Virus record (IMG/VR): IMGVR_UViG_3300031772_000003
Coordinates: 1 to 64,000 of that record
Direction: 5' to 3' (one strand)
DNA length: 64,000 bases
Origin: a virus
Shown: positions 8,384-55,734 of the stretch, piece by piece
How the letters are laid out: each line of letters opens with the position of its first letter
How positions within the stretch are numbered: position 1 is the first letter of the stretch
The notes under the pieces: model-generated
The model's input: only the letters and a program-made list of their open reading frames with translations
Told to the model about the DNA's origin: nothing
Database searches by the model: none
Translations under genes and position numbers: made by a program

Positions 8384-9201
8384 AAGCTGGTCTCCTCAAT
8401 TACTCTCCCCTTCCTCCACACCCCATCCGCCAAGCGGTACTCACGGCAGATAGGGGCAAAGCCCTCGGGTGCAGCCACGAGGCTGCGGAGGTCGAGGCTG
8501 CCCCCTGCTTTGGGGGCGAAGCCTTCGGGGGCAGCCACGAGGCTGCTGAGGTTGAGGCTGCCCCCTGCTTGGGGGGCGAAGCCCTCGGGTACAGTGGTGA
8601 GGCTGCTGAGGTTGAGGCCGCCCCCTGCTTGGGGGGCGAAGCCCTTATGTACAGCCGTGAGGCTGCCGAGGTTGAGGTAGCCCCCTGCTTTGGGGGCGAA
8701 GCCTTCGGGTACAGTGGTGAGGCTGCCGAGGTAGAGGTCGCCCCCTGCCTGGGGGGCGAAGCCCTCGGGTGCAGCCACGAGGCTGCGGAGGTTGAGGTTG
8801 CCCCCTGCCTGGGGGGCGAAGCCCTCGGGTACAGTGGTGAGGCTGCCGAGGTAGAGGTCGCCTTTCCATGCGAGGGTCTTGCGGGGCTTCCCCGCACGGG
8901 TCAAGAGGACGCTCTTGACCTCAGCGAGGCATTGCCTCGCCGCGCTCGCGGTGTGGGAGTCCGTCCACCAATCGGGCCTGCCGGCATCGAATCGGAACTC
9001 GTATTTGTCCCATTCGTAGAGTCCCCCGGTGGGGACGAACTCGACGGGGGTGTAGAAGCGGCTCAAGCCGCCTGTACCCCCATCCTCCCCAATCCTGTGG
9101 GCGGTGCGATTGGCCGTATGGGAGTCCTCCCGTTCGGAGAACAGGACCTTGACCTCCGAGTCATCCACCCTCATGGCTTCGCCGGAACGGAATTGGCACA
9201 T
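8380..9201 (-). CDS. Leucine-rich-repeat solenoid protein, copy B, 273 aa
   Basis: ATG at 9201 is chosen over upstream in-frame starts because AAGGAG lies eight bases before it and because the paralogue starts at the same residue. Residues 1-115 form the shared N-terminal domain; seven 20-residue repeats (GGxLxLxSLxxxPEGFAPxA, 60 bp each) follow, then a short unique tail ending in a charged segment. This copy is complete, whereas copy A runs off the window. Repeat-to-repeat differences concentrate at a few positions (Leu/Tyr, Thr-Thr/Val-Ala/Thr-Ala). Function unknown; binding is likely. Confidence 0.85.
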   Translation of the reverse strand: MCQFRSGEAMRVDDSEVKVLFSEREDSHTANRTAHRIGEDGGTGGLSRFYTPVEFVPTGGLYEWDKYEFRFDAGRPDWWTDSHTASAARQCLAEVKSVLLTRAGKPRKTLAWKGDLYLGSLTTVPEGFAPQAGGNLNLRSLVAAPEGFAPQAGGDLYLGSLTTVPEGFAPKAGGYLNLGSLTAVHKGFAPQAGGGLNLSSLTTVPEGFAPQAGGSLNLSSLVAAPEGFAPKAGGSLDLRSLVAAPEGFAPICREYRLADGVWRKGRVIEETSL

Positions 9202-10249: not shown

Positions 10250-10309
10250 CCCATTCTCCTCTCTGTGGTAAAATCCCACATGGTGCGGGCCCACGCCTTC
10301 ACCATTCTC

Positions 10310-10452
10310 GTCGCTACTCCAGAGTAGCGTCGCTACTCCAGAGTAGCGTCGCTACGGTCCTCTTGAGGACCGGTCCAGAGTAGCGTCGCTACGGTCCTCT
10401 TGAGGACCGGTCCAGAGTAGCGTCGCTACTCAGGAGTAGCGTCGCTACTCCA
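10310..10452. repeat. Array of short hairpin repeats (GCTACTCC/AGTAGC family)
   Basis: Several copies of GCTACTCCAGAGTAGC, linked by the self-complementary GTAGCGTCGCTAC, and two copies of a longer unit containing GGTCC-TCTTGA-GGACC. Each unit can form its own stem. The array separates two small genes and overlaps the last few codons of the 78-aa gene. A related array lies at 55621-55680, where the central bases are AA instead of AG. Possible attenuators, RNA processing sites or protein-binding sites. Confidence 0.85.
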
Positions 10453-10681
10453 CCACTGCCCTGAAGTAAGGGTCAAAAACCATCCTCTCCCCTACCTCCC
10501 AGCCGTCGGCCAGTTCGACCACGATCCAGCGCGCGATGTCGGACTGGGACAGCTTCACGTCCGCTGGATCTGGGAAGAACTCCATAGAGGCTCTCCGAGC
10601 CGCCGCCCCCGGAGTGGGAAAGTCCCCCTCCACATCCATTTCCACCCGGACCACGAACTCAGCCTTCACTCTATACCTCAT
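10445..10681 (-). CDS. Hypothetical protein, 78 aa
   Basis: ATG at 10681 with GAGGA upstream. Strand-rich start (RYRVKAEFVVRVEMDVEG), acidic middle, C-terminal strand. No family recognised. The last codons lie within the hairpin array and the leader motif (10699-10717) lies 17 bases before the start. Confidence 0.7.
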   Translation of the reverse strand: MRYRVKAEFVVRVEMDVEGDFPTPGAAARRASMEFFPDPADVKLSQSDIARWIVVELADGWEVGERMVFDPYFRAVVE

Positions 10682-10698
10682 CTCATTCCTCGCTCTCT

Positions 10699-10717
10699 CC
10701 TCCCACCCCTAGAATCA
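10699..10717 (-). promoter_or_regulatory. Repeated leader motif, copy 2
   Basis: Exact TGATTCTAGGGGTGGGAGG on the coding strand, 17 bases before the ATG of the 78-aa gene. It sits at the downstream end of the structured non-coding region, so it could separate an RNA gene from the next mRNA. Confidence 0.7.
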
Positions 10718-10749
10718 AGTCAGGGGGAACCGTATTTAGCACCGTGTAC

Positions 10750-11439
10750 GTACCCACCCCCTTTTCTACCGACAGGAGGGGAGGAGGGTACTTATTGTGT
10801 ACTATGTAAGTGTAGCATGAGAGAGAACTCTCATTGCTTCACTCTTATAGGACCCAGGTTCTGGGTAGTACCACTTCCCGTGGAGGTAGACGGGTTCTGT
10901 TCCAATCCACTCGCGTCCATCTCTTACACCTAATAACAAGGCTGGGAGAGGATAGCCGTAGGTTGGTTCAGACGCGATAGTTGCGTGCAGGCTTGGACCG
11001 CTCTGAACCCAACCGCTTGGGGTACGGTTGCTACCGACGCGACTCCGTGAGGAGCCCTGGCAGTGCGGTCCAATGAGATGAAGGGAGTTGCGGATGTCGG
11101 TTGCCCGGTCCGTCTGGGGTGCGGCGGTAAGCCCCGGGCACGGTTTTGAGTCCCGTCTCGCCGGTGACTCACGCTCCACGGTGTGAGGCTTCGAGCGTAG
11201 GAAGCCTGCCTGCACACTATGTCCATGCGTCATTGTCGGACGCATGGGGTTCAATCCAGCCCAGAGCCTGAAACGAGGGTGGGCCAGAACATGGTGAGGG
11301 AAGTGCCACCCCACCCGGAATGGTGAAGGTTCCTCGATTCCCTGGACGGCCTTGGGTGGGGTGGCAGGAGGACCAAAAAAGAAGCTACCCGCATCGAGAG
11401 TGAGCCCGGAGGTCTTTTCTCTGGGGGCGATGCGGGTAG
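10750..11439 (-). ncRNA. Candidate large structured non-coding RNA
   Basis: This is the only gene-free stretch of this length (about 790 bases between coding starts and stops) and it is packed with inverted repeats. Perfect stems pair 11385-11396 with 11428-11439 (12 bp), 11304-11316 with 11354-11366 (13 bp), 11223-11231 with 11239-11247 (9 bp, 7-nt loop), 11186-11192 with 11201-11207 (7 bp), 11102-11108 with 11134-11140 (7 bp), 10993-11001 with 11065-11073 (9 bp) and 10817-10823 with 10828-10834 (7 bp). A loop at 11193-11198 is complementary to 11171-11176, a possible pseudoknot. The stem 10961-10972/11002-11014 (12 bp, one bulge) competes with hairpin 11010-11015/11025-11030. G-U completions at 11041-11056 and inside the 13-bp stem favour the minus strand, one stem favours plus. 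Size and phage context recall GOLLD and ROOL, but I cannot match a consensus. Ends are approximate. Confidence 0.6.
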
Positions 11440-11472
11440 GATTGGTTCCGTTCAACTCTTCACCTCCGGGCC

Positions 11473-11688
11473 TTACTCTGTACCGATTCTACGCATGAGG
11501 CGCGGGGCTCGTACCTGTAGTCGTTTCAACCCGCCTCCCCGGCCAACTCGGCCCGGAGATCCATGTATCTTCTCTACCTTCCTGATCGTGGTCCTGGCCA
11601 GCTTCACCCTCGCCTCGATTGCCTTCTTTTGTGATAGTAGGGCAGCCAGTTTCTCGTTGTTCCACTTCTCGTCAGCTATCCATGACAT
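11473..11688 (-). CDS. Small coiled-coil basic protein, 71 aa
   Basis: ATG at 11688, one base after the HNH gene's end, with AGGGG nearby. Residues 1-45 are helical and heptad-like (NEKLAALLSQKKAIEARVKL); the C-terminus is Gly/Arg-rich and basic, suggesting nucleic-acid binding. It lies between the HNH gene and the structured RNA region. Confidence 0.6.
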   Translation of the reverse strand: MSWIADEKWNNEKLAALLSQKKAIEARVKLARTTIRKVEKIHGSPGRVGRGGGLKRLQVRAPRLMRRIGTE

Positions 11689-11690
11689 GG

Positions 11691-12146
11691 TTAGCCCCTC
11701 AGTTCCGGCATGTCGGGCCCACGCTCTAGGTTGCAGCGGCGGCATGCCAGGGTGAAGTTATTGCCATTATTCAGGCCCCCACGGACCAGGGGTACGATGT
11801 GGTCGAGGGTCGAGGTAGCTAGAGTTAGAGGCGCTCCGCACCAGTGGCACCGGGGGTCGAGGCTCAGCAAGTTCTCCCGGACCCGTCTGTAGCTGGCGCT
11901 CCTGATGTCCTGCCGGCCCCTGCAATGGGGGACCCTGTGGGTCGCCGCGACGGCCTTCTTCACGCTGGCCAGGAAGCCTGCCGTGGTGCCGGCCACATAA
12001 GCTGTGGGCCCCCGCTTCGCATCGGGGTAGTATTTGACCAGCAGAGCCCCGCCCCCGATCTGCCAGTGGCCGCCGCCGCTCCGCTGGGGCAGCAGGCCCG
12101 CGCGGGTCACGGCTCTGACGAACTCGGGCCATGCGGGGCGTCTCAT
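11691..12146 (-). CDS. HNH endonuclease with HicA-like N-terminal domain, 151 aa
   Basis: ATG at 12146 with GGAGGAG nine bases upstream; it overlaps the upstream stop as ATGA. Residues 1-60 (WPEFVRAVTRAGLLPQRSGG followed by a GHWQI strand and VKYYPDAKRG) look like the dsRBD-like fold of HicA toxins, which bind RNA. Residues about 95-145 form an HNH domain: CHWC, then LDHIVPLVRGG, NN, and CRRCN. Such HNH proteins may be homing enzymes or packaging or repair nucleases; the fusion to an RNA-binding-like domain is unusual. The catalytic His in HicA is not clearly conserved here. Confidence 0.75.
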   Translation of the reverse strand: MRRPAWPEFVRAVTRAGLLPQRSGGGHWQIGGGALLVKYYPDAKRGPTAYVAGTTAGFLASVKKAVAATHRVPHCRGRQDIRSASYRRVRENLLSLDPRCHWCGAPLTLATSTLDHIVPLVRGGLNNGNNFTLACRRCNLERGPDMPELRG

Positions 12147-13057
12147 TCGTACCGCTCCTCCGGACCTGCGAGGCATACAACCCATTGGCTTGGCCCGTCC
12201 CCGGACTTGGCCCTCTTGATCCTGTAGGTGCGCCCGCAGTCGCAGGCGAAGCAGAGGCGGGGGTAACAACCACCCGTATCGGGTGGCTCCTGCTTCGCGG
12301 CTTGGGGTCGCGGGTCAGCGAAGCGGCGGCGGAGCCTCATGCGTTCCTCCGCGGCCCCAGTGAGGAAGTAAGTGCGCTTGATGTCGTTGGGGTCCGTGAC
12401 CCGAAAGTTCCGCATCCACTCTGGATAGTCCTTGGCGTCTACGACGCCCCCCAGCAGCCCCTCCAACTCCTTCACGCGCTCTTGCAGTTTCGTTATATCG
12501 GCATATGACAGGTTCAAGGAAATGCGGTAGACCGATTCCAGATTCGCTTGCTGGGTGTGGAATGCGTCGCTTCGCTCGCGGCACATATCGTTGTTCGCTG
12601 CTTGCAGGCTGCTGACCCGTTCCGCCAGCTTCTTGATCTCGTCCCGCGCCTCGTCGCGCTCGCCCTCCGCCTTCTTCGCCGCGGCGAAATTGTGTTCCGC
12701 GACTGACTTGTAGCTGCCCCTTTCCTTCCGCGCCTCGTTGCGTTCGCGCTCTACCTTGTCCGCGCGTTGCTGCCATTCGGTAATGGCCTCCCGCCGCGTC
12801 ATGTTGGCCTTCCGCCATTCGGCGTCGTCGCGCTCGGCATTCTCCGCGCGCCGCAGGGCCTTGTCCAACTCTTCCCGGACGCCAGCAAACCGCAACTCTT
12901 CCGATAGGAGAGTTCCGCTGGCCTTAGCCTCCGCCTCGATGCGGTCGGCGAGTCGGCGCAGATGTTTCCCCGCGCCATGTAAGCCCATGAATTCGGGTGA
13001 ACCATCCCAGTTCCGAGCCATGTGCCTCAACCTCGCCATGATCTCAGTGGATGTCAT
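12143..13057 (-). CDS. Long coiled-coil protein with C-terminal Cys motif, 304 aa
   Basis: ATG at 13057 with AGGAG eight bases upstream is preferred; the long extension upstream lies inside the PurA-like gene. Residues about 40-210 are an almost continuous charged coiled coil (Glu/Lys/Arg/Ala). The C-terminal 60 residues contain CFACDCGRTYRIKRA, a possible zinc-binding knuckle. Resembles phage or SMC-like coiled-coil proteins without ATPase motifs. Function unknown. Confidence 0.75.
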   Translation of the reverse strand: MTSTEIMARLRHMARNWDGSPEFMGLHGAGKHLRRLADRIEAEAKASGTLLSEELRFAGVREELDKALRRAENAERDDAEWRKANMTRREAITEWQQRADKVERERNEARKERGSYKSVAEHNFAAAKKAEGERDEARDEIKKLAERVSSLQAANNDMCRERSDAFHTQQANLESVYRISLNLSYADITKLQERVKELEGLLGGVVDAKDYPEWMRNFRVTDPNDIKRTYFLTGAAEERMRLRRRFADPRPQAAKQEPPDTGGCYPRLCFACDCGRTYRIKRAKSGDGPSQWVVCLAGPEERYE

Positions 13058-14336
13058 GCGCCGTCTCCTCTCTCTTATCCAAGTGGGTAGGCCCATGGGA
13101 TGTGATACTGATACGGGTGCCGAGCAGCCTGCCAAGGACTTCCGGCAGGGACCCAAGCTCAATGGGTGTGTAAACGGGCCGGACCCCCTGCAACTTCGCG
13201 CCCAGGGCTGCCTGCTCCCCCCTGGATACAGGCAGCGGGAGAGGCTGGTCGTGGGGGGGCTCGTAGCTCTCGCAGAGCTTGGCGTCACGGCCGGCCAGGC
13301 AGTCGAGGCAGGTGAGGGCGACGGCATCCAGGCCCCCATTTGCCTCAATAGCGTACCGGAGTAGTGGGATGTCGAGCCAGCCAAACCGCATCGGTCCCTG
13401 CCAGCGCCCGGTCGTGTTGTGGGTCTCTTTGGGGTGGAATGCGGGGTCCTCGGTCGGGAAGGGCCCTGGGCCGTGCCGCACCATGTAGCCTCGGATGACG
13501 CCCCACTTCACCATCTCGATGGGGTGGGGGATTTCGGCGAGCAGGGTAAGGGCATTCGCCGCCGTGGTTCTGCTCCAAGTGGTGTGGGGGTGGAACCCGT
13601 AGTCCTGATCGATCAGGATGCCCTGCGAGCCCTCGAAGATCACGCAGGAGCCGTTGGGGATGTCCAGTGCGCCGTTACTACAGCATCGTACAATTTCCCT
13701 GCATGCTCCCAGGAAGCTCTTTGTAATGCTTGGGTCCACTAAGAGGCTCAGTGCGTCCTCAACATCGGGATCGGGGGACATAGGGATGAGTGGCTGCATA
13801 CGAAGCCAAGCCATCTTTTGTTCCCGCACTTCGGTGGCCCTATCCTGGAAGCCCGGCGTAGACATGTCCCCTACCCGCAGGCATTCCGTCGGGCGCTCGA
13901 TGGAGTCCCGGACGGCCTCTCCCGCACCCGTGCCGCAGGAGCCGTGCCTGTTGGGCCCCCTGGCTAACTCCCGCAGCCGGTTCTGAGCTTTATGGTAGGG
14001 TGTGACGAGAGGGGCCTGGGGGTGAATGGCCAAGCGGCTGCAAGGATCGCTCACACCTAACTTAATGAGGTGATCGGCCTCACGAAGGATCGCCGGCGGA
14101 TCGACCTGGCAGAAGCGGGACAGGTAGGTCTCCACACCCTCCACGAATGTCCCGCTCCCGAACTGGGAGAACGTATGCTGCCTGCCGTCTGGCAGCACGA
14201 TGTTATGGCCAGCTTGCCCCCCGCCGTTGTGCCTGATGATAAGGCGGGCCCCATCCCGTCGGGTGAGGTACTCGGACAGAGTACCCTTGCCGGCATCGCC
14301 GTATCCCAAGTCCGCAATGACGTGAGCCCTTACCAT
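13044..14336 (-). CDS. Adenylosuccinate synthetase (PurA) superfamily protein, 430 aa
   Basis: PurA couples GTP and aspartate to IMP. All family landmarks are present in order: the P-loop-like GYGDAGKGT at residue 11, GGGQAGHN, the GSCGTGAGEAV/VGDM segment, the FEGSQGILIDQDYG motif and NTTGRWQGP...GWLD. The Asp of the GDxGKG motif, which is replaced in characterised PurZ enzymes of 2-aminoadenine phages, is retained. Several signatures (HTFSQFGSGTF, RHGSCGTG) differ from classical PurA and look like a divergent clade. No other Z-genome genes (DatZ, MazZ, DpoZ) are visible. It may support purine supply or nucleotide modification. Confidence 0.85.
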   Translation of the reverse strand: MVRAHVIADLGYGDAGKGTLSEYLTRRDGARLIIRHNGGGQAGHNIVLPDGRQHTFSQFGSGTFVEGVETYLSRFCQVDPPAILREADHLIKLGVSDPCSRLAIHPQAPLVTPYHKAQNRLRELARGPNRHGSCGTGAGEAVRDSIERPTECLRVGDMSTPGFQDRATEVREQKMAWLRMQPLIPMSPDPDVEDALSLLVDPSITKSFLGACREIVRCCSNGALDIPNGSCVIFEGSQGILIDQDYGFHPHTTWSRTTAANALTLLAEIPHPIEMVKWGVIRGYMVRHGPGPFPTEDPAFHPKETHNTTGRWQGPMRFGWLDIPLLRYAIEANGGLDAVALTCLDCLAGRDAKLCESYEPPHDQPLPLPVSRGEQAALGAKLQGVRPVYTPIELGSLPEVLGRLLGTRISITSHGPTHLDKREETAHDIH

Positions 14337-14345
14337 GTGGCCCTC

Positions 14346-15284
14346 TCAGTCAGCTTCCAGGTTCAGAGCCCTGATGACAGCCCTGCTGACCGTCGCTGCT
14401 GAGGCGGCGTTGAGGCCGCTGCCCACGAGATCCAGGGCGCTTGTCCCTGGCTTGGCGGTCCCCTCGGACAGGCCCACGATCAGGGCGATGGCCTCGCAAA
14501 TGAGGTCGGGGTCATCGAGTGGGATGATGTTCTGGCCGACGTACCGCGCCCAGTCCGTCTGGATGCTGAGGTCTCCGCTGTGCTGGGCTCCCGATCTCGG
14601 CATCAGGAAGAACACGTTCCACCGCTCCCGAAGCTGCTCGAACACCTTGGTGGTCGGGATGTCGGCCTGGAGGTCGTCCCCGATGACGGAGCGCACCAGC
14701 CGCGCGTACACCGATTCGTAGGGCCGCTCGTCCCCGATGAAGAAGATGTAGCCCTTCTTCTGCCGCTTCTCCCACGCATCCGTAGCGAACCGGGTCTGGG
14801 CGAAGTAGGCCGCGAGTTCGTAGGATTCCGTGTTCTGCCCTCCCCCCATCCGTTCGATGAAGATGCGGCTGATGTCCTCGTCCATTTCGACGCCGCTCTC
14901 GAACTGCCCGACTTGGAGGGGCACGTAGTCGCACGTCGCGTCCCCCACCGCCCCGAAGAAGACCTGGGGGTGCTCGACGTACTTCGAGCCCAGGATCACC
15001 TTCATCAGCTTGCCGAGCTTCGCTTGGAGCGTGATCGGAATGTCGCCCATGCTCCCCGTCACGTCGAAGAACACGGCAATCGGCAGCGACGTTGGGTGGG
15101 CCGCGCTGTCGCGGCTTTCGCGGATTTTGACGCCCTTCGGGTTCATCTTCTCATGAACTTGGGGGAGCGCCCCGCTCTCCTTCACCCGCTTCGTGTAGTC
15201 CGTGGTGAAGCCTTTGACGCCGCTGACGGCCCTGAAGGCGTCCCTGCCCTTGTAACTGTCGTCGCTCCACATCGAGCTACCCAT
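14346..15284 (-). CDS. VWA-domain protein with MIDAS motif, 312 aa
   Basis: ATG at 15284 with AAGGAG seven bases upstream. A von Willebrand A-like fold is indicated by the metal-site motif FDVTGSMGD (about residue 70), a later acidic-Thr/Gly segment (GGGQNTESYE) and a FFIGDE strand. Together with the DUF3150-like protein and AAA+ ATPase upstream it forms a module seen in phages and resembling MoxR/VWA or CobS/CobT chaperone pairs, in which the ATPase remodels a target presented by the VWA partner. Confidence 0.85.
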   Translation of the reverse strand: MGSSMWSDDSYKGRDAFRAVSGVKGFTTDYTKRVKESGALPQVHEKMNPKGVKIRESRDSAAHPTSLPIAVFFDVTGSMGDIPITLQAKLGKLMKVILGSKYVEHPQVFFGAVGDATCDYVPLQVGQFESGVEMDEDISRIFIERMGGGQNTESYELAAYFAQTRFATDAWEKRQKKGYIFFIGDERPYESVYARLVRSVIGDDLQADIPTTKVFEQLRERWNVFFLMPRSGAQHSGDLSIQTDWARYVGQNIIPLDDPDLICEAIALIVGLSEGTAKPGTSALDLVGSGLNAASAATVSRAVIRALNLEAD

Positions 15285-15365
15285 ACCGATCTCCTTTTGG
15301 CCACTATTGAAGTGGCGGTTCCCAAGATCCCCTATGTTGCAATGCATCCTCTACACCATAGTCGA

Positions 15366-16591: not shown

Positions 16592-16597
16592 AGTGAA

Positions 16598-22745: not shown

Positions 22746-23741
22746 TTACGATTTCGGTGGCTCGCCCCACAAACGGTCCACCTCGGCTAGGATAGTGCAG
22801 GGGTTCAGATTCATGAGTCGAGCGCATCCACGCTCCGTGCATTTCACGGTATAGCCCCACGCGGGACGGCGCGAACACGGGCCCTCGCATACCACGTCCA
22901 TTCCCTCCAGGGCGGTACAGAGGGGGTAGGTGTGGATCGTCGCCACCGACGTGGGCCCGAACAATCCGATGCAGCGGGTCCGCGTCGCCGCTGCGAGATG
23001 GAGGATGGCGCTGTCGACGCATATCGCGCCCCAGCAGTTCGCTAGGACCCATGCCAGAGCGGGCAGGGCGAGCCCGATGACAGGCACGGCTCCATCAGGC
23101 ACGATAAAGTGGGGCTCCACGAGGTCGAGAACTAGGGGCCGGAGGCCACGCGCGAGGAGACCCTGGACCAAGTACTCCGCGTAGGGCCGTGGGTACGTCC
23201 GTTCCAAGGCTGAGGCTCTCAGCGCCACGGCGACCCACGGCTCACGCCCTCTTGAGCAGCCCAAGTGGGTTGAGACGGGCCCACTGTCCTCCCCGAACCT
23301 GAATCCCCATGAGGGGCAGGCGTGGCTCAAGCCCTTGGTCTTAGCGGCGGCGCAGAACAAACCGGCTCTGCCCCGATCGACCGCGGGCAGGGTACAAGCC
23401 AACTCGTAGGCTTCGCCTGGGCACCATAGGTCCACTATGGTCTTGGGCTCGCAACCCCGCAACGGCGCGAGGTAGGGGTAGCGCGTGGAATCAATGGGCC
23501 CGCCGCGCTCTCGCCGGCCCTGTGCCTTGATTTCTTTTACTGTACCGAGCCCGATGAAGTTCTCGACGCCGTAGAGGTGGCGATAGACTTCGGCGTAGTC
23601 CAATGGGGCGAAGACCGTCACGACGCACGCGGGGTCCTCGTGGCGGAGTTGCCGGGCCGCGGCCCCAACGCACAACGAATCGCCTATTGCCCCTCCGTCT
23701 CTGAGGAGACGGTGGAAGCGTCCACGATCAGCGGCGCACAA
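22746..23741 (-). CDS. Glycosyltransferase family 9 (heptosyltransferase-like)
   Basis: The GAIGDSL loop near the N-terminus is the hallmark of GT9, followed by VFAPLDYAEVY, a PWVAVALRAS nucleotide-sugar strand and a C-terminal WGAICVDSAILHLAAA/GLFGPTSV segment, as in WaaC/WaaF. Cysteines near the C-terminus (CEGPCSRRP, CTERGC) form a further Cys cluster. The start is uncertain: no ATG or GTG lies upstream of GAIGD near the end of the radical SAM gene, and TTG 23741 is the nearest candidate, overlapping that gene. Confidence 0.75.
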   Translation of the reverse strand: MCAADRGRFHRLLRDGGAIGDSLCVGAAARQLRHEDPACVVTVFAPLDYAEVYRHLYGVENFIGLGTVKEIKAQGRRERGGPIDSTRYPYLAPLRGCEPKTIVDLWCPGEAYELACTLPAVDRGRAGLFCAAAKTKGLSHACPSWGFRFGEDSGPVSTHLGCSRGREPWVAVALRASALERTYPRPYAEYLVQGLLARGLRPLVLDLVEPHFIVPDGAVPVIGLALPALAWVLANCWGAICVDSAILHLAAATRTRCIGLFGPTSVATIHTYPLCTALEGMDVVCEGPCSRRPAWGYTVKCTERGCARLMNLNPCTILAEVDRLWGEPPKS

Positions 23742-26080
23742 TGGCTTGGGTCCCCCGTCTGCCAACCATACGGTTGTTTCTGGGCCGTGGGATCGGGGTA
23801 GATTCGAGCCAGTAACTCCGGGCCCACCTCGGACATGATCCATAGGGCCATGCGGACGTACCGCCACATCAGGGCGCAACCGGCGTCATAGGGCTGGGTC
23901 ATCGAGCCGTACTCCGCGAGAGAGGCATGACGGCACCCGCCGCCACAGGCCCACCTGGCCGCGCACTTCATGCATATCTCAGATCGATAGGATCGATTCT
24001 CGCACCACGGCAGACGAGCTACCTCATCGATCCCACCGCGGTCGAGATGGCCGATCTCTGAGGGGGTCTCACGATGGCAGTTATGTACGAAGACACCTGC
24101 TGCCAGAGCGAAATTATGGTACTTCTCTACTTCAAGACAGTACACATCCGCCCTACCGGCGGGGGCGACTGAAACAACCCGGTGGTTGGTCGGGGCAGTA
24201 ACATAGTGGTCCGTCTGGCGCTGGTGGTTCCCGCAGCAGCCCGCATTGGTAAACGCCCTACTACAAACGGGACAGGCAGTACTTTTGACCGCGTACCACC
24301 TAAGTCGGGCTAGATGCTCGCCACTGTGGAGATGGATGTACCGACCATTGGTGGGATCATGCGATGCCCTGCTTGTTGCTACTGCTAACCTACCCCTCCA
24401 TCGGGTCTTGTTCTTCTGAATCCCGGCGAGGGCGTAATTGATGTTCTCACGGTTGATGGGTTCCATCTTCTTACGGAAATCTTGGCTTTGCCATTGGTCT
24501 GCTATGCTGTACCCACCCTCATCTAGGTGTCGTTTTCTGTGTTCCGAGTGAGTTAGTGCATCCAAGTTGTCGGGGTCGTTGTTTCTACTATTCCCATCTT
24601 TGTGGTGGACAACCTTCCTTTTAGGGAGTGGGCCGTGGATGGCCTCCCAGACCATCTGGTGGGTTGATAACCGCGCCCCACCTGGGTGGTACAGGCTCTC
24701 ATAGAATGCTACATGACCGCCGTGGCTTTTATGCCTAGCTGTGAGACCTTTGTAGAGGGGCATCAGGGACGCACCCGAAGCTAGTTGGTCAGCCCTGCAA
24801 TACGTCCCATCTCGGAGCATGAAAGGATGGTCAGGGGTACAACGGACCACCTCTCGGTTGTCCAGTGTCACAGCAAGAAGTTCTTGGTCTTTGGCTACCA
24901 GGTGGGCCGTGGCTCTTCCTGGAACCACTTTGTCCCCATCATAAGAGTACACCCAAAGGGGCTTTGGGTGCGCCACTAGGTCAGCAATTGGCTGATCCAT
25001 TCCGTTGAGCAGGGACACCTTAGTGTCCCCCGCGAAGCAGGCAAAAATCTCGCCGTCAGGGGCCACACTAACTACCCCACTGCCTGCGCCGCACTCAGTT
25101 GGACTGTGCTGTGTCCACAATAGACGGGTCAGGAATACCTCCATGCCGTGCAGTCGGGGCCTCTTGCCCGCTCGCAGACGCTCCACGGCCCAGTCCGCCA
25201 CGGACATGTACTCCTCGTCCAAGCCCTCGATGTCTGCAGCAGTGAGGTTGAGAGCAGCCCGCTTGCGGTCGACGCACCGGGTCTCAGAGAGGCAGATCGG
25301 CTCCACGGAGACCCCCTGGGCATAGCCCTGGTCGCAGAGATCGTTGAGATGAGCCACCCGCTCCAGGACATGAGTGGAGCCGTTATAGAAGGTGGAGCGG
25401 AGCGTTATGGCACCGGCCCGTGCGGCCTTGAGCCCGTCCAATGCGGCCCTCACGAGCCCGTAGCTGCCGCTCCCGTTGATCATGGGGCGAGCCGCATCGT
25501 GGAGAGGCTGGGGGCCGTCCAGCGAGACAATGAGGCTGAAACCATGCTCAACAAGCCACCTTGCCTTTGCTTCACTAAGGAGGACCGCATTGGTGGTGAC
25601 GTGCAGAGAGGGCTTGAGCGGAGCGGCATAGCCCTCCACGAATATCGCCGCTTCCTTGAGCGTCTCCCATGCCATCAGAGGCTCGCCGCCGAAGAAGCTG
25701 ACATGGACACCCATGCCCTGGGGCATATGCCCACAGGGCCTGGCAAGGAGGCGTGTGATCGCGGCCTTGGCCGTGGTGATGGACATGACCTTGACCGGAG
25801 AGTCAGGATAGTCATGGGTGAAGCAGTAAAGGCAAGAAAGGCAGCAAGCGTGCGTTAGTTCCAGCACGACCATACCGGGCTGTCGGGCCGTGTAGGGATC
25901 GAACTGGGGCCGTTTGTCCAGTAGGGGCACCGCCTCCTCGGGTGTATCGGTTTGGAACACCGCCAGCGAGTTGGTGTCGAGGGCGAAGTGCCGGTCCCGG
26001 ACTTGGATGCGGGCCGCCTCGGGCTTGGCGTCGTACCACTTAGTCCTGTTAAGCTTGATCTCGGCGTTGAGCTTACGCAA
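23684..26080 (-). CDS. Radical SAM/SPASM maturase interrupted by an HNH intein, 798 aa (478 after splicing)
   Basis: Radical SAM enzyme that cleaves SAM with a [4Fe-4S] cluster held by CCLSCLYC (CxxxCxxC), followed by the GGEPL motif. After intein removal the C-terminus contains a SPASM domain (DGEIFACHRE, then CMKCAARWACGGGCRH and a final Cys) for auxiliary clusters. This group includes enzymes that form thioether or other crosslinks in peptides or mature quinoproteins. TTG at 26080 is favoured by AGGAG nine bases upstream; an ATG at 26125 without a Shine-Dalgarno is the alternative. Its substrate in the phage is unknown; cysteine-rich tail proteins lie about 10 kb upstream. Confidence 0.85.
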   Translation of the reverse strand: MRKLNAEIKLNRTKWYDAKPEAARIQVRDRHFALDTNSLAVFQTDTPEEAVPLLDKRPQFDPYTARQPGMVVLELTHACCLSCLYCFTHDYPDSPVKVMSITTAKAAITRLLARPCGHMPQGMGVHVSFFGGEPLMAWETLKEAAIFVEGYAAPLKPSLHVTTNAVLLSEAKARWLVEHGFSLIVSLDGPQPLHDAARPMINGSGSYGLVRAALDGLKAARAGAITLRSTFYNGSTHVLERVAHLNDLCDQGYAQGVSVEPICLSETRCVDRKRAALNLTAADIEGLDEEYMSVADWAVERLRAGKRPRLHGMEVFLTRLLWTQHSPTECGAGSGVVSVAPDGEIFACFAGDTKVSLLNGMDQPIADLVAHPKPLWVYSYDGDKVVPGRATAHLVAKDQELLAVTLDNREVVRCTPDHPFMLRDGTYCRADQLASGASLMPLYKGLTARHKSHGGHVAFYESLYHPGGARLSTHQMVWEAIHGPLPKRKVVHHKDGNSRNNDPDNLDALTHSEHRKRHLDEGGYSIADQWQSQDFRKKMEPINRENINYALAGIQKNKTRWRGRLAVATSRASHDPTNGRYIHLHSGEHLARLRWYAVKSTACPVCSRAFTNAGCCGNHQRQTDHYVTAPTNHRVVSVAPAGRADVYCLEVEKYHNFALAAGVFVHNCHRETPSEIGHLDRGGIDEVARLPWCENRSYRSEICMKCAARWACGGGCRHASLAEYGSMTQPYDAGCALMWRYVRMALWIMSEVGPELLARIYPDPTAQKQPYGWQTGDPSHCAPLIVDASTVSSETEGQ
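24080..25039 (-). mobile_element. Intein with HNH endonuclease, 320 aa, in the SPASM protein
   Basis: Begins CFAGDTKVSL, has a CTPDHPF block B, an HNH domain (KVVHHKDGNSRNNDPDNL...HRKRH) and a small CxxC zinc motif (CPVC), and ends FVHN with Cys+1. It is inserted inside the SPASM segment, after FA and before CHRE. The HNH suggests it can still home. Confidence 0.9.
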
Positions 26081-26333
26081 CAGGGGTCTCCTGACTTTCC
26101 CGTCCAATTCCAAGGGCCAGCCCATCGAGGCTGCGGGCAATCTTTGAGATGAGGTTTCCGGCGATTTGGGCGCAACGGCTCGCCTCTTCAGGGGTCGTGC
26201 ATTCGCCGTGAATGATGATCTGCCCGGAAACTGTGGCGGCCATGCTCGGATTGCCGCTCGCGGACGCCTCAAAGGTGTGCTTGGATGTGCTGCCTTGGCT
26301 GATGTAAAGGACTTCGTAGTCGGTCCCGTTCAT
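26073..26333 (-). CDS. Hypothetical protein, 86 aa
   Basis: ATG overlaps the previous stop (ATGA), with GAGGGGG upstream. Ser/Thr-rich strand-forming N-terminus and a C-terminal helix. It ends within the start region of the SPASM gene. No family recognised; it might be a partner or substrate of the maturase by position only. Confidence 0.6.
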   Translation of the reverse strand: MNGTDYEVLYISQGSTSKHTFEASASGNPSMAATVSGQIIIHGECTTPEEASRCAQIAGNLISKIARSLDGLALGIGRESQETPVA

Positions 26334-29839: not shown

Positions 29840-30544
29840 TTAGAATGCGATCAGCCGCGAGATTGCCCTGTTCCCGCACAGGATACGCGAGCCTGATTCA
29901 TCGTAGGCCCCCCACCCCTGCCTGATCGTCAGGGGAAGCGTTCCTGGTTTCGCACCGGCGACATGGGCGCAGAGTGGCTCCGCTTCATCGTCCACAAACC
30001 AACCCGGGTTCCCACCCATCCAGCCTCGCGCCTCCCAGCGCTTCCGGCAGCGGACACAGCGGACCGTGAATCGATCACTCGGCAAAGGGCGCGCGATCCG
30101 GGCGATGTCCTCGATGGCGGCCCCCAGGTAGACCCAGGAGTCACACTGGGCCCAATCCTCGTCCTGGTGGTGGCCACCTACAATGGCCTCACCCGAGCGC
30201 AGGATGGTCAACTCCTCCCACCCCCCGCTTGCGAGCATGGTCGCCAGGACATCCTGTGGGTTATCCAGGTCAACCTGCTTCCGCACCGTGGGTTGCGGGA
30301 AAACGGGCCGCGAGGCGGTTGAGGTCCGAGGCTCCTCAGCCTCGCCGGGCTCAGCCGAGTCGTCCACGTCCGGCTCGTCCGGTGGGTCGCAGCATGCAGC
30401 GTGCCTGGCCTTCTGTCCAGGTTCCCAGACAATAGCGTCTCCAACCTCGATGTAGTCGCCACACTCGGGGCAGCGACTGGCGTACTTTGCCTGCATGCGG
30501 CGTTCGAGGAGCCTGCCCACTGCCTTTTTGGTCAAATCGTCCAT
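29840..30544 (-). CDS. Zinc-ribbon protein with LLE-tagged N-terminus, paralogue, 234 aa
   Basis: Starts MDDLTKKAVGRLLE, followed by CPEC (residue 24), CC around residue 51 and CVRC near residue 163: two zinc sites. The N-terminal 50 residues are clearly paralogous to 28777-29706 (WEPG, RHAACC versus SHIRCP). The middle is Pro/Glu-rich and the C-terminus has Trp/Gly. Virion-associated function is guessed from the N-terminus. Confidence 0.7.
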   Translation of the reverse strand: MDDLTKKAVGRLLERRMQAKYASRCPECGDYIEVGDAIVWEPGQKARHAACCDPPDEPDVDDSAEPGEAEEPRTSTASRPVFPQPTVRKQVDLDNPQDVLATMLASGGWEELTILRSGEAIVGGHHQDEDWAQCDSWVYLGAAIEDIARIARPLPSDRFTVRCVRCRKRWEARGWMGGNPGWFVDDEAEPLCAHVAGAKPGTLPLTIRQGWGAYDESGSRILCGNRAISRLIAF

Positions 30545-30618
30545 CGCCTGCTCCTAGAAAGCCCCCACAGCGAGCAACGGTGGCCCGCAGGGGCGTCCGT
30601 GGGCCTCAAGTGGACCTC
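30518..30618. repeat. 101-bp direct repeat, copy 2
   Basis: Identical to 29680-29780; covers the start of the 234-aa gene and its upstream leader. Homologous recombination between the two copies would delete one gene. Confidence 0.9.
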
Positions 30619-30687
30619 TGCTACCTCACGGGGGCCGCGAGGCCCGTGTACGGCCTTAGTATAGCACACCAGCCTGTGGGGGTCAAG

Positions 30688-31332
30688 CTACTTGTCCTGT
30701 TTCTCAGACTCCTTGACCCCATCCCTCCCGGCAGCCGTGAGGGGAGGCAGGTACTTGATGAGCAGCTTGAAGGTCACAGGCTCGTCAGCCTTGACTCGTG
30801 ACGGTTTGGTAATACAGAGGCAGTACTTGCCGGGGCCTCTGTCAATCTTGGTCACGGTGACTTGGCCTCTCACCTCGTAGCTCACCACGCCCGCCATGGC
30901 GGGAGGCTGGGGGAGGGTCTTTGAGCGAAAGTCGCCATCATCCTTCCATGCGGGCTCGTCTGGTATGCCGTTGAGCGTGATGTCCACGATGGGATGTCCC
31001 GACCTACGCCATTCCATCCCTGAACGGGACAAGTGCAATTCGACGTGATCTCCGCGCAGGGTCGCCACGATCAACAAGCTCTTGGCTTCCCTCTTGGGGG
31101 CTATGGTGCGGTACTGCTTCGTCACGGCGAGGCGGGACTCGATGTCCGCGATGAGAGCCTTGTCGTCCTGGACCTTCGCCTTGGTCAGGAGCGACTCCAG
31201 CCCGTTGGCATAGTCCCGGTCCAACTCCCGGAGTTGGCCCGGGAGAGGGAGTTCCGCGGGTACTCCTGCTGGCTGGGCCCGCAGGGCAGAAATGAGTCCC
31301 AGTAGGATAGTGAGGCACAGCAGTTTACGCAT
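30688..31332 (-). CDS. Secreted protein, 214 aa
   Basis: A signal peptide (MRKLLCLTILLGLISALRA then Gln) is predicted from ATG 31332; an ATG at 31350 with GGAGGAG is an alternative. The mature part begins with a short helical repeat (LRELDRDYANGLESLLTKA, ADIESRLAVTKQ) resembling secreted proteins of Planctomycetes/Verrucomicrobia, then a beta-rich domain with DITLNGIPDEP and a C-terminal strand-rich KLLIKYLPP. Rare in phages; it could be a lysogeny or host-interaction factor. A leader-motif copy lies 28 bases upstream. Confidence 0.7.
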   Translation of the reverse strand: MRKLLCLTILLGLISALRAQPAGVPAELPLPGQLRELDRDYANGLESLLTKAKVQDDKALIADIESRLAVTKQYRTIAPKREAKSLLIVATLRGDHVELHLSRSGMEWRRSGHPIVDITLNGIPDEPAWKDDGDFRSKTLPQPPAMAGVVSYEVRGQVTVTKIDRGPGKYCLCITKPSRVKADEPVTFKLLIKYLPPLTAAGRDGVKESEKQDK

Positions 31333-55536: not shown

Positions 55537-55620
55537 TGCGTCCTCCTCGTTGTCGAGATACCTCCGGCACTCATGTGCAAGCGGGACGCCCAGGACTCGG
55601 CCTGAGCGTCCCGCCTGGGT

Positions 55621-55680
55621 GCTACTCCAAAGTAGCGGTGCTACTCCAAAGTAGTGGTGCTACTCCAAAGTAGCGGTGCT
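55621..55680. repeat. Array of short hairpin repeats, second locus
   Basis: Three tandem copies of about 20 bp (GCTACTCCAAAGTAGC plus a GGT spacer); each forms a 6-bp stem with a TTGG loop on the coding strand. Same family as 10310-10452. It lies after the capsid gene stop and upstream of the zinc-finger gene. Confidence 0.85.
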
Positions 55681-55734
55681 ATGCCACGAACGCGGGTCTA
55701 TGTACCTGAGCGGCGATTCTCGTCAAGCCCCTGC

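Follow-up and report, generated by a model that had tools for sequence, protein, structure and literature searches.

A candidate large structured non-coding RNA with a pseudoknotted core in a poorly known contractile-tailed phage

The window analysed here is a stretch of 64,000 nucleotides corresponding to bases 1-64000 of a 163,716-base IMG/VR virus record. The record belongs to a contractile-tailed phage: it encodes a tail sheath, a baseplate wedge protein, a tape measure protein, a major head protein, a DnaB-like helicase and a primase, and a PurA-like adenylosuccinate synthetase is among its genes. According to a rough codon-usage gene caller, which misses genes in places, 156 of the 168 genes lie on the minus strand. 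The nearest tail sheath among annotated phages, from Bacillus phage SP-15, is 39% identical, and the nearest in IMG/VR is 47% identical; no close relative was found in these collections, from which near-identical records may be missing. The phage is large and poorly known.

On the minus strand, a run of genes follows a promoter-like motif at 16593, encoding in order a vWA-like protein, PurA, an HNH endonuclease and a small ORF. The PurA-like synthetase and, before it, the vWA-like protein with a DVTGSM motif occupy 13044-15347. The vWA-like gene is also present in 78 of the fetched loci, and among bacteria it is matched best in Chloroflexota, Planctomycetota and Actinomycetota. HNH models are also matched elsewhere in the window, together with radical SAM, by an 862-aa frame at 23684-26272 (minus strand). 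Past the small ORF there are 791 nt of non-coding sequence (10682-11472), and then a short gene without homologue (Table 1). Iterated palindromes (GTCGCTACTCCAGAGTAGC, GGTCCTCTTGAGGACC, GGTGCTACTCCAAAGTAGC) occur at 10309-10429 and at 55618-55681, the former being intergenic and just downstream of that gene. A 60-bp tandem repeat is common to 1-585 and 8453-8862, 8 kb apart, where it runs over open frames on opposite strands.

An earlier note on this DNA, made from the letters alone, had called the stretch otherwise gene-free and had named protein homology for a 217-codon frame within it among the findings that would refute an RNA. By codon usage this minus-strand frame scores -0.04 per codon, compared with +0.23 +/- 0.10 in long genes, and it is without a match in Pfam, PHROG or phage proteins. 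A protein reading was rejected on the codon score and the absence of a protein homologue, and the stretch is indeed free of genes.

Table 1. Features in and around the non-coding stretch, in window coordinates and listed from 5′ to 3′ on the minus strand.
Feature	Position	Strand	Remarks
HNH endonuclease gene, upstream	11691..12146	minus	PF01844, E 3e-9
Small ORF, 5′ neighbour of the stretch	11473..11745	minus	90 aa, without homologue, codon score neutral
Candidate large structured RNA	10760..11440	minus	best-supported part about 10815-11371
10-bp pairing of the 12-bp hairpin loop with sequence just past the upstream stop codon	11403..11471	minus	9 bp tested, tenth read from sequence
9-bp stem	11405-11413/11462-11470	minus	10 bp with the next base
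12-bp hairpin with 31-nt loop, then tail CUUCUUUUUU	11384..11439	minus	terminator-like boundary
12-bp stem	11385-11396/11428-11439	minus	perfect Watson-Crick
13-bp hairpin UGCCACCCCACCC/GGGUGGGGUGGCA	11304-11316/11354-11366	minus	perfect stem; pair probabilities 0.69-1.0
9-bp hairpin	11223-11231/11239-11247	minus	perfect stem; pair probabilities 0.97-1.0
P1, long-range closing helix, 8 bp	10985-10992/11208-11215	minus	pair probability 0.92
H-type pseudoknot	11171..11207	minus	geometry scan; inside the core closed by P1/P2
P2, 9-bp stem	10993-11001/11065-11073	minus	perfect Watson-Crick
Third abutting helix, 8 bp	11002-11009/10965-10972	minus	about 12 bp with one bulge, to 11015/10961
3′ domain of the candidate RNA	10815..10975	minus	folding z
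Phage promoter-like motif CTTGATTCTAGGGGTGGGAGGA	10698..10719	minus	3′ of the RNA, 38 nt ahead of the start codon of 10445-10681
Gene downstream of the stretch	10445..10681	minus	78 aa, without homologue, coding score +0.39 per codon

The non-coding stretch is dense in long perfect stems, as the earlier note had reported. Five reach at least 9 bp (13, 12, 9, 9 and 9-10 bp), and there are four more perfect stems with a length of 8 bp. The numbers of stems with at least 8, 9, 10 and 12 bp are 9, 5, 2 and 2, compared with means of 2.4, 0.5, 0.15 and 0 in 60 shuffled sequences (maxima 6, 2, 1 and 0). Across the genome, five stems of at least 9 bp are reached by only 6 of 435 windows, two of which are the stretch itself.

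The folding energy is equally unusual. On the minus strand, 10720-11470 has a z of -7.0 (20 shuffles) or -6.1 (40 shuffles); for the plus strand of the stretch the value is -6.1 in one run and -4.6 in another. The shorter segment 10720-11290 gives -5.9 on the minus and -4.4 on the plus strand. The core (10975-11262) is strand-specific, with z -3.7 on the minus strand versus -1.5 on the plus strand, and the 3′ domain gives -2.1 and -2.4, respectively. The ends of the stretch are weaker: 11372-11472 is mildly unusual (z about -1.7) and 10720-10815 is at chance level (z -0.3). Unpaired G is rare in the minus-strand fold (30 of 283 unpaired bases), as would be the case in a real structured RNA, and not depleted in the plus-strand fold (58 of 229). 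Across the genome, deviations of this size are confined to a few windows, several of them being tandem repeats or the collagen-like fibre gene.

The plus strand also folds well, and the stretch could have a role at the level of DNA, with the hairpins acting as DNA in a replication origin, a packaging site or a recombination site. The DnaB-like helicase, primase and helicase genes 4-9 kb away and the iterated palindromes at 10309-10429 would suit such an element. However, the stretch contains no iterons or direct repeats of at least 9 nt, no strong AT-rich stretch and no GC-skew turn, and folding of the core depends on the strand. The lack of direct repeats and of a skew turn argues against an origin in particular, which was rejected for this reason, and a DNA-level element of any of these kinds is improbable.

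From 5′ to 3′ on the minus strand, the candidate RNA consists of the 12-bp hairpin, the 13-bp hairpin, the 9-bp hairpin, the P1/P2 core, the third helix and the 3′ domain. The 3′ strands of P1 and P2 abut. The core that they close holds a pseudoknot of near-ideal classical H-type geometry, with a 7-bp first stem (S1, 11201-11207/11186-11192), a 6-bp second stem (S2, 11193-11198/11171-11176) and loops L1, L2 and L3 of 2, 0 and 9 nt. The pairing 11171-11176/11193-11198, previously suggested as a possible pseudoknot, is thus real as sequence, being the second stem of this element; its geometry class appears in 0 of 400 shuffles and at four loci on the whole 163.7-kb minus strand. A third perfect helix abuts P2 in turn on the same strand, so that 25 continuous bases (10985-11009) are pairable in three perfect helices, an arrangement reached by 11 of 3000 shuffles. 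The third helix cannot nest with P1 and P2 and must therefore form either a pseudoknot or an alternative state; a nested alternative that includes it is only about 4 kcal/mol worse than the favoured fold. Its pairing conflicts both with the favoured multi-branch fold and with a local hairpin (11010-11016/11024-11030), and the mutually exclusive pairings noticed earlier near 11002-11015 are accordingly real. The core pseudoknot and the abutting-helix arrangement exceed chance.

Stems, folding energy, pseudoknot and abutting helices are all in excess together, and this speaks against a chance or decayed sequence with accidental stems. Such a sequence would explain why no homologue was found and why folding at either end of the stretch is close to chance, and the GC-rich genome has other well-folding places, several of them repeat arrays; even so, accident has very little probability here. 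What is generally looked for in a structured non-coding RNA, namely folding beyond that of shuffles, absence of coding and strand specificity, is found in the stretch. The earlier proposal of a structured RNA, with the minus strand as the likeliest one, is supported by the z of -6 to -7 on that strand, the strand-specific core and the non-coding status, and the stretch is probably a real structured RNA.

Both edges of the candidate RNA carry elements that bear on its transcription. The U-tailed hairpin at the 5′ edge is the strongest terminator-like site of the genome scan, and the pairing of its loop with the sequence past the upstream stop codon is a possible pseudoknot or switch. Its position counts against an RNA gene, because the hairpin would stop transcription from upstream ahead of the RNA, unless it is weak, bypassed or itself part of the RNA. 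The motif at the 3′ edge, CTTGATTCTAGGGGTGGGAGGA, occurs 18 times, always on the minus strand, and a sharp drop in score separates these copies from the next site: seven are in the window (9981, 10719, 16593, 17280, 17624, 19679 and 31381) and 11 more at 68206-133050 of the record. Most copies shortly precede a start codon and one lies 49 nt before a tRNA-like gene, which has no start codon; these positions make the motif look like a promoter, and it is probably a phage-specific one without a -35 element. The tRNA-like RNA that follows this copy, missed by ARAGORN, is 166 nt long (record G000, 101098-101263, minus strand; L092, 17098-17263; Rfam tRNA, 38.7 bits); its anticodon loop holds a structured insert of 99 nt, and its anticodon stem is extended to 9 bp. 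From the upstream stop codon to the motif the distance is within about 150-170 nt for most copies and 754 nt for the copy at 10719; a few other copies have longer apparent gaps, where the gene caller misses genes. The long gap at 10719 and the confinement of the motif to the minus strand favour an RNA gene on that strand. Neither a copy of CTTGATTCTAGGGGTGGGAGGA nor a sigma-70 site was found 5′ of the candidate RNA within the stretch. Used as a handle for relatives in IMG/VR, the motif returned no sharer and one apparent chance match.

These edges could also be read as parts of a cis-acting region, in which the upstream operon ends with a terminator at 11384-11439 and the structure after it serves as a long leader or an attenuator of gene 10445-10681. 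The U-tailed hairpin right past the upstream stop codon, with its 10-bp competing pairing, is consistent with this, as are the alternative pairings near 11002-11015 with their small difference in energy. However, a promoter-like motif belonging to the downstream gene itself comes only past the structured stretch, and the structure would consequently not sit in the leader of that gene; moreover, 750 nt is long for an attenuator and Rfam gives no riboswitch match. Regulation in cis is therefore unlikely, if less so than a DNA-level role.

The search with Rfam covariance models that had been proposed for GOLLD, ROOL and other large RNAs was run and gave no match at the gathering score, nor with E allowed up to 10; riboswitches, group I and group II introns and HEARO were likewise without a match to the stretch. 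No convincing homologue was returned by blastn against annotated phages and plasmids, or by a DNA search of more than 100 IMG/VR records, selected as relatives through their tail sheath, PurA and vWA-like proteins. The same was true of two covariance models (R1 and R2) run over the IMG/VR relatives; each was built from a single sequence, recovers the window itself and is of untried power for distant relatives. Exact RNA-word patterns in IMG/VR gave nothing convincing, and a scan for structure near the PurA or vWA-like gene in 23 relatives turned up other regions with hairpins; the three that were inspected do not resemble one another. The candidate RNA is thus known from a single sequence, with no homologue among the phages, plasmids and IMG/VR relatives searched.

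One record (G103, 30860-30885) has a 26-nt match to the pseudoknot region (88%, E 0.001 in one record), which sits in a non-coding region of about 740 nt that follows a vWA-like gene and shares its strand. As homology it was rejected, because it is partly a tRNA acceptor end, its structural context differs and its E is near chance over all records; it is kept as a lead. The region around it (30500-31243, minus strand; L424) lies about 6 kb past the vWA-like gene and contains a tRNA as well as a U-tailed hairpin resembling a terminator. In a related 160-kb phage, a non-coding region of about 600 nt (L105, 1373-1976) contains a giant near-perfect hairpin of tens of base pairs with GGGGGCAC repeats.

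On balance, the stretch is somewhat better explained as a large structured non-coding RNA gene on the minus strand, at about 10760-11440, than otherwise. Such an RNA would be transcribed with or after the upstream gene run; as no promoter was found 5′ of it, transcription would start further upstream, perhaps at the motif at 16593, or at a promoter that escaped recognition. The U-tailed 12-bp hairpin would bound the RNA at its 5′ end and the next promoter-like motif, at 10719, at its 3′ end, and the molecule would fold as one compact unit held by P1/P2 and the pseudoknot. Action in trans as a structural RNA, of the kind suspected for GOLLD and ROOL, is preferred over the switching of a single gene, since the RNA would be large, its pseudoknotted core compact and the downstream gene supplied with a promoter-like motif of its own; it may be put at even chances. 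The RNA, located between the PurA-HNH run and a promoter, might also stand for a new class, as the first large pseudoknotted phage RNA of a kind with no relation to GOLLD or ROOL, a proposal to be taken tentatively. Novelty of class is plausible, and what is described here is one well-supported candidate from a single sequence rather than a class.

Introns and OMEGA-type RNAs are often found together with HNH genes. Here one such gene lies about 220 nt 5′ of the stretch, and the RNA could belong to a mobile element, as an intron or guide RNA linked to that endonuclease, and like HEARO/OMEGA RNAs it is a structured RNA near an HNH gene. In contrast with these, it has no Rfam match, and the HNH protein, with just 151 aa, has no matches above the cut-offs except to HNH models and is not IscB-type. 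A group I or group II intron was rejected for want of an Rfam match to the conserved catalytic core, HEARO is equally unmatched at E up to 10, and both neighbouring genes look complete rather than split. Mobile-element RNA is thus a highly improbable reading, and a large phage RNA gene remains the preferred one.

The closest known systems in size and complexity are GOLLD and ROOL. GOLLD is a large phage and prophage RNA, often exceeding 800 nt, multi-branched with pseudoknots and of unknown function, and ROOL, of about 660 nt, occurs in phages and prophages and forms an octameric cage, with a complex pseudoknotted fold and no known protein partner (PMC12286853). The candidate shares with GOLLD its phage origin, very large size and, as predicted, a multi-branched pseudoknotted fold, but does not match its covariance model and is not near a tRNA island, as GOLLD often is: no tRNA was found by ARAGORN anywhere in the record, and the single tRNA-like element lies about 90 kb from the stretch. 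With ROOL it shares a similar length, a complex fold with pseudoknots and the lack of a known protein partner, but again there is no covariance-model match, tRNA genes are not nearby and conservation at the level of a family was not found. ROOL has covariation-supported stems P1-P19 and a pseudoknot, P10; in the candidate, a pseudoknot is present. Expression of GOLLD rises during lysis, and ROOL assembles into a homo-oligomeric cage. Without an Rfam match or a tRNA neighbourhood it is not filed under either family, and its likeness to them in size and complexity is a resemblance only. Few very large structured RNAs are known from phages, and their role is unknown; one more without relation to these, if real, would point to repeated origins of such RNAs and provide a new system for asking what large phage RNAs do.
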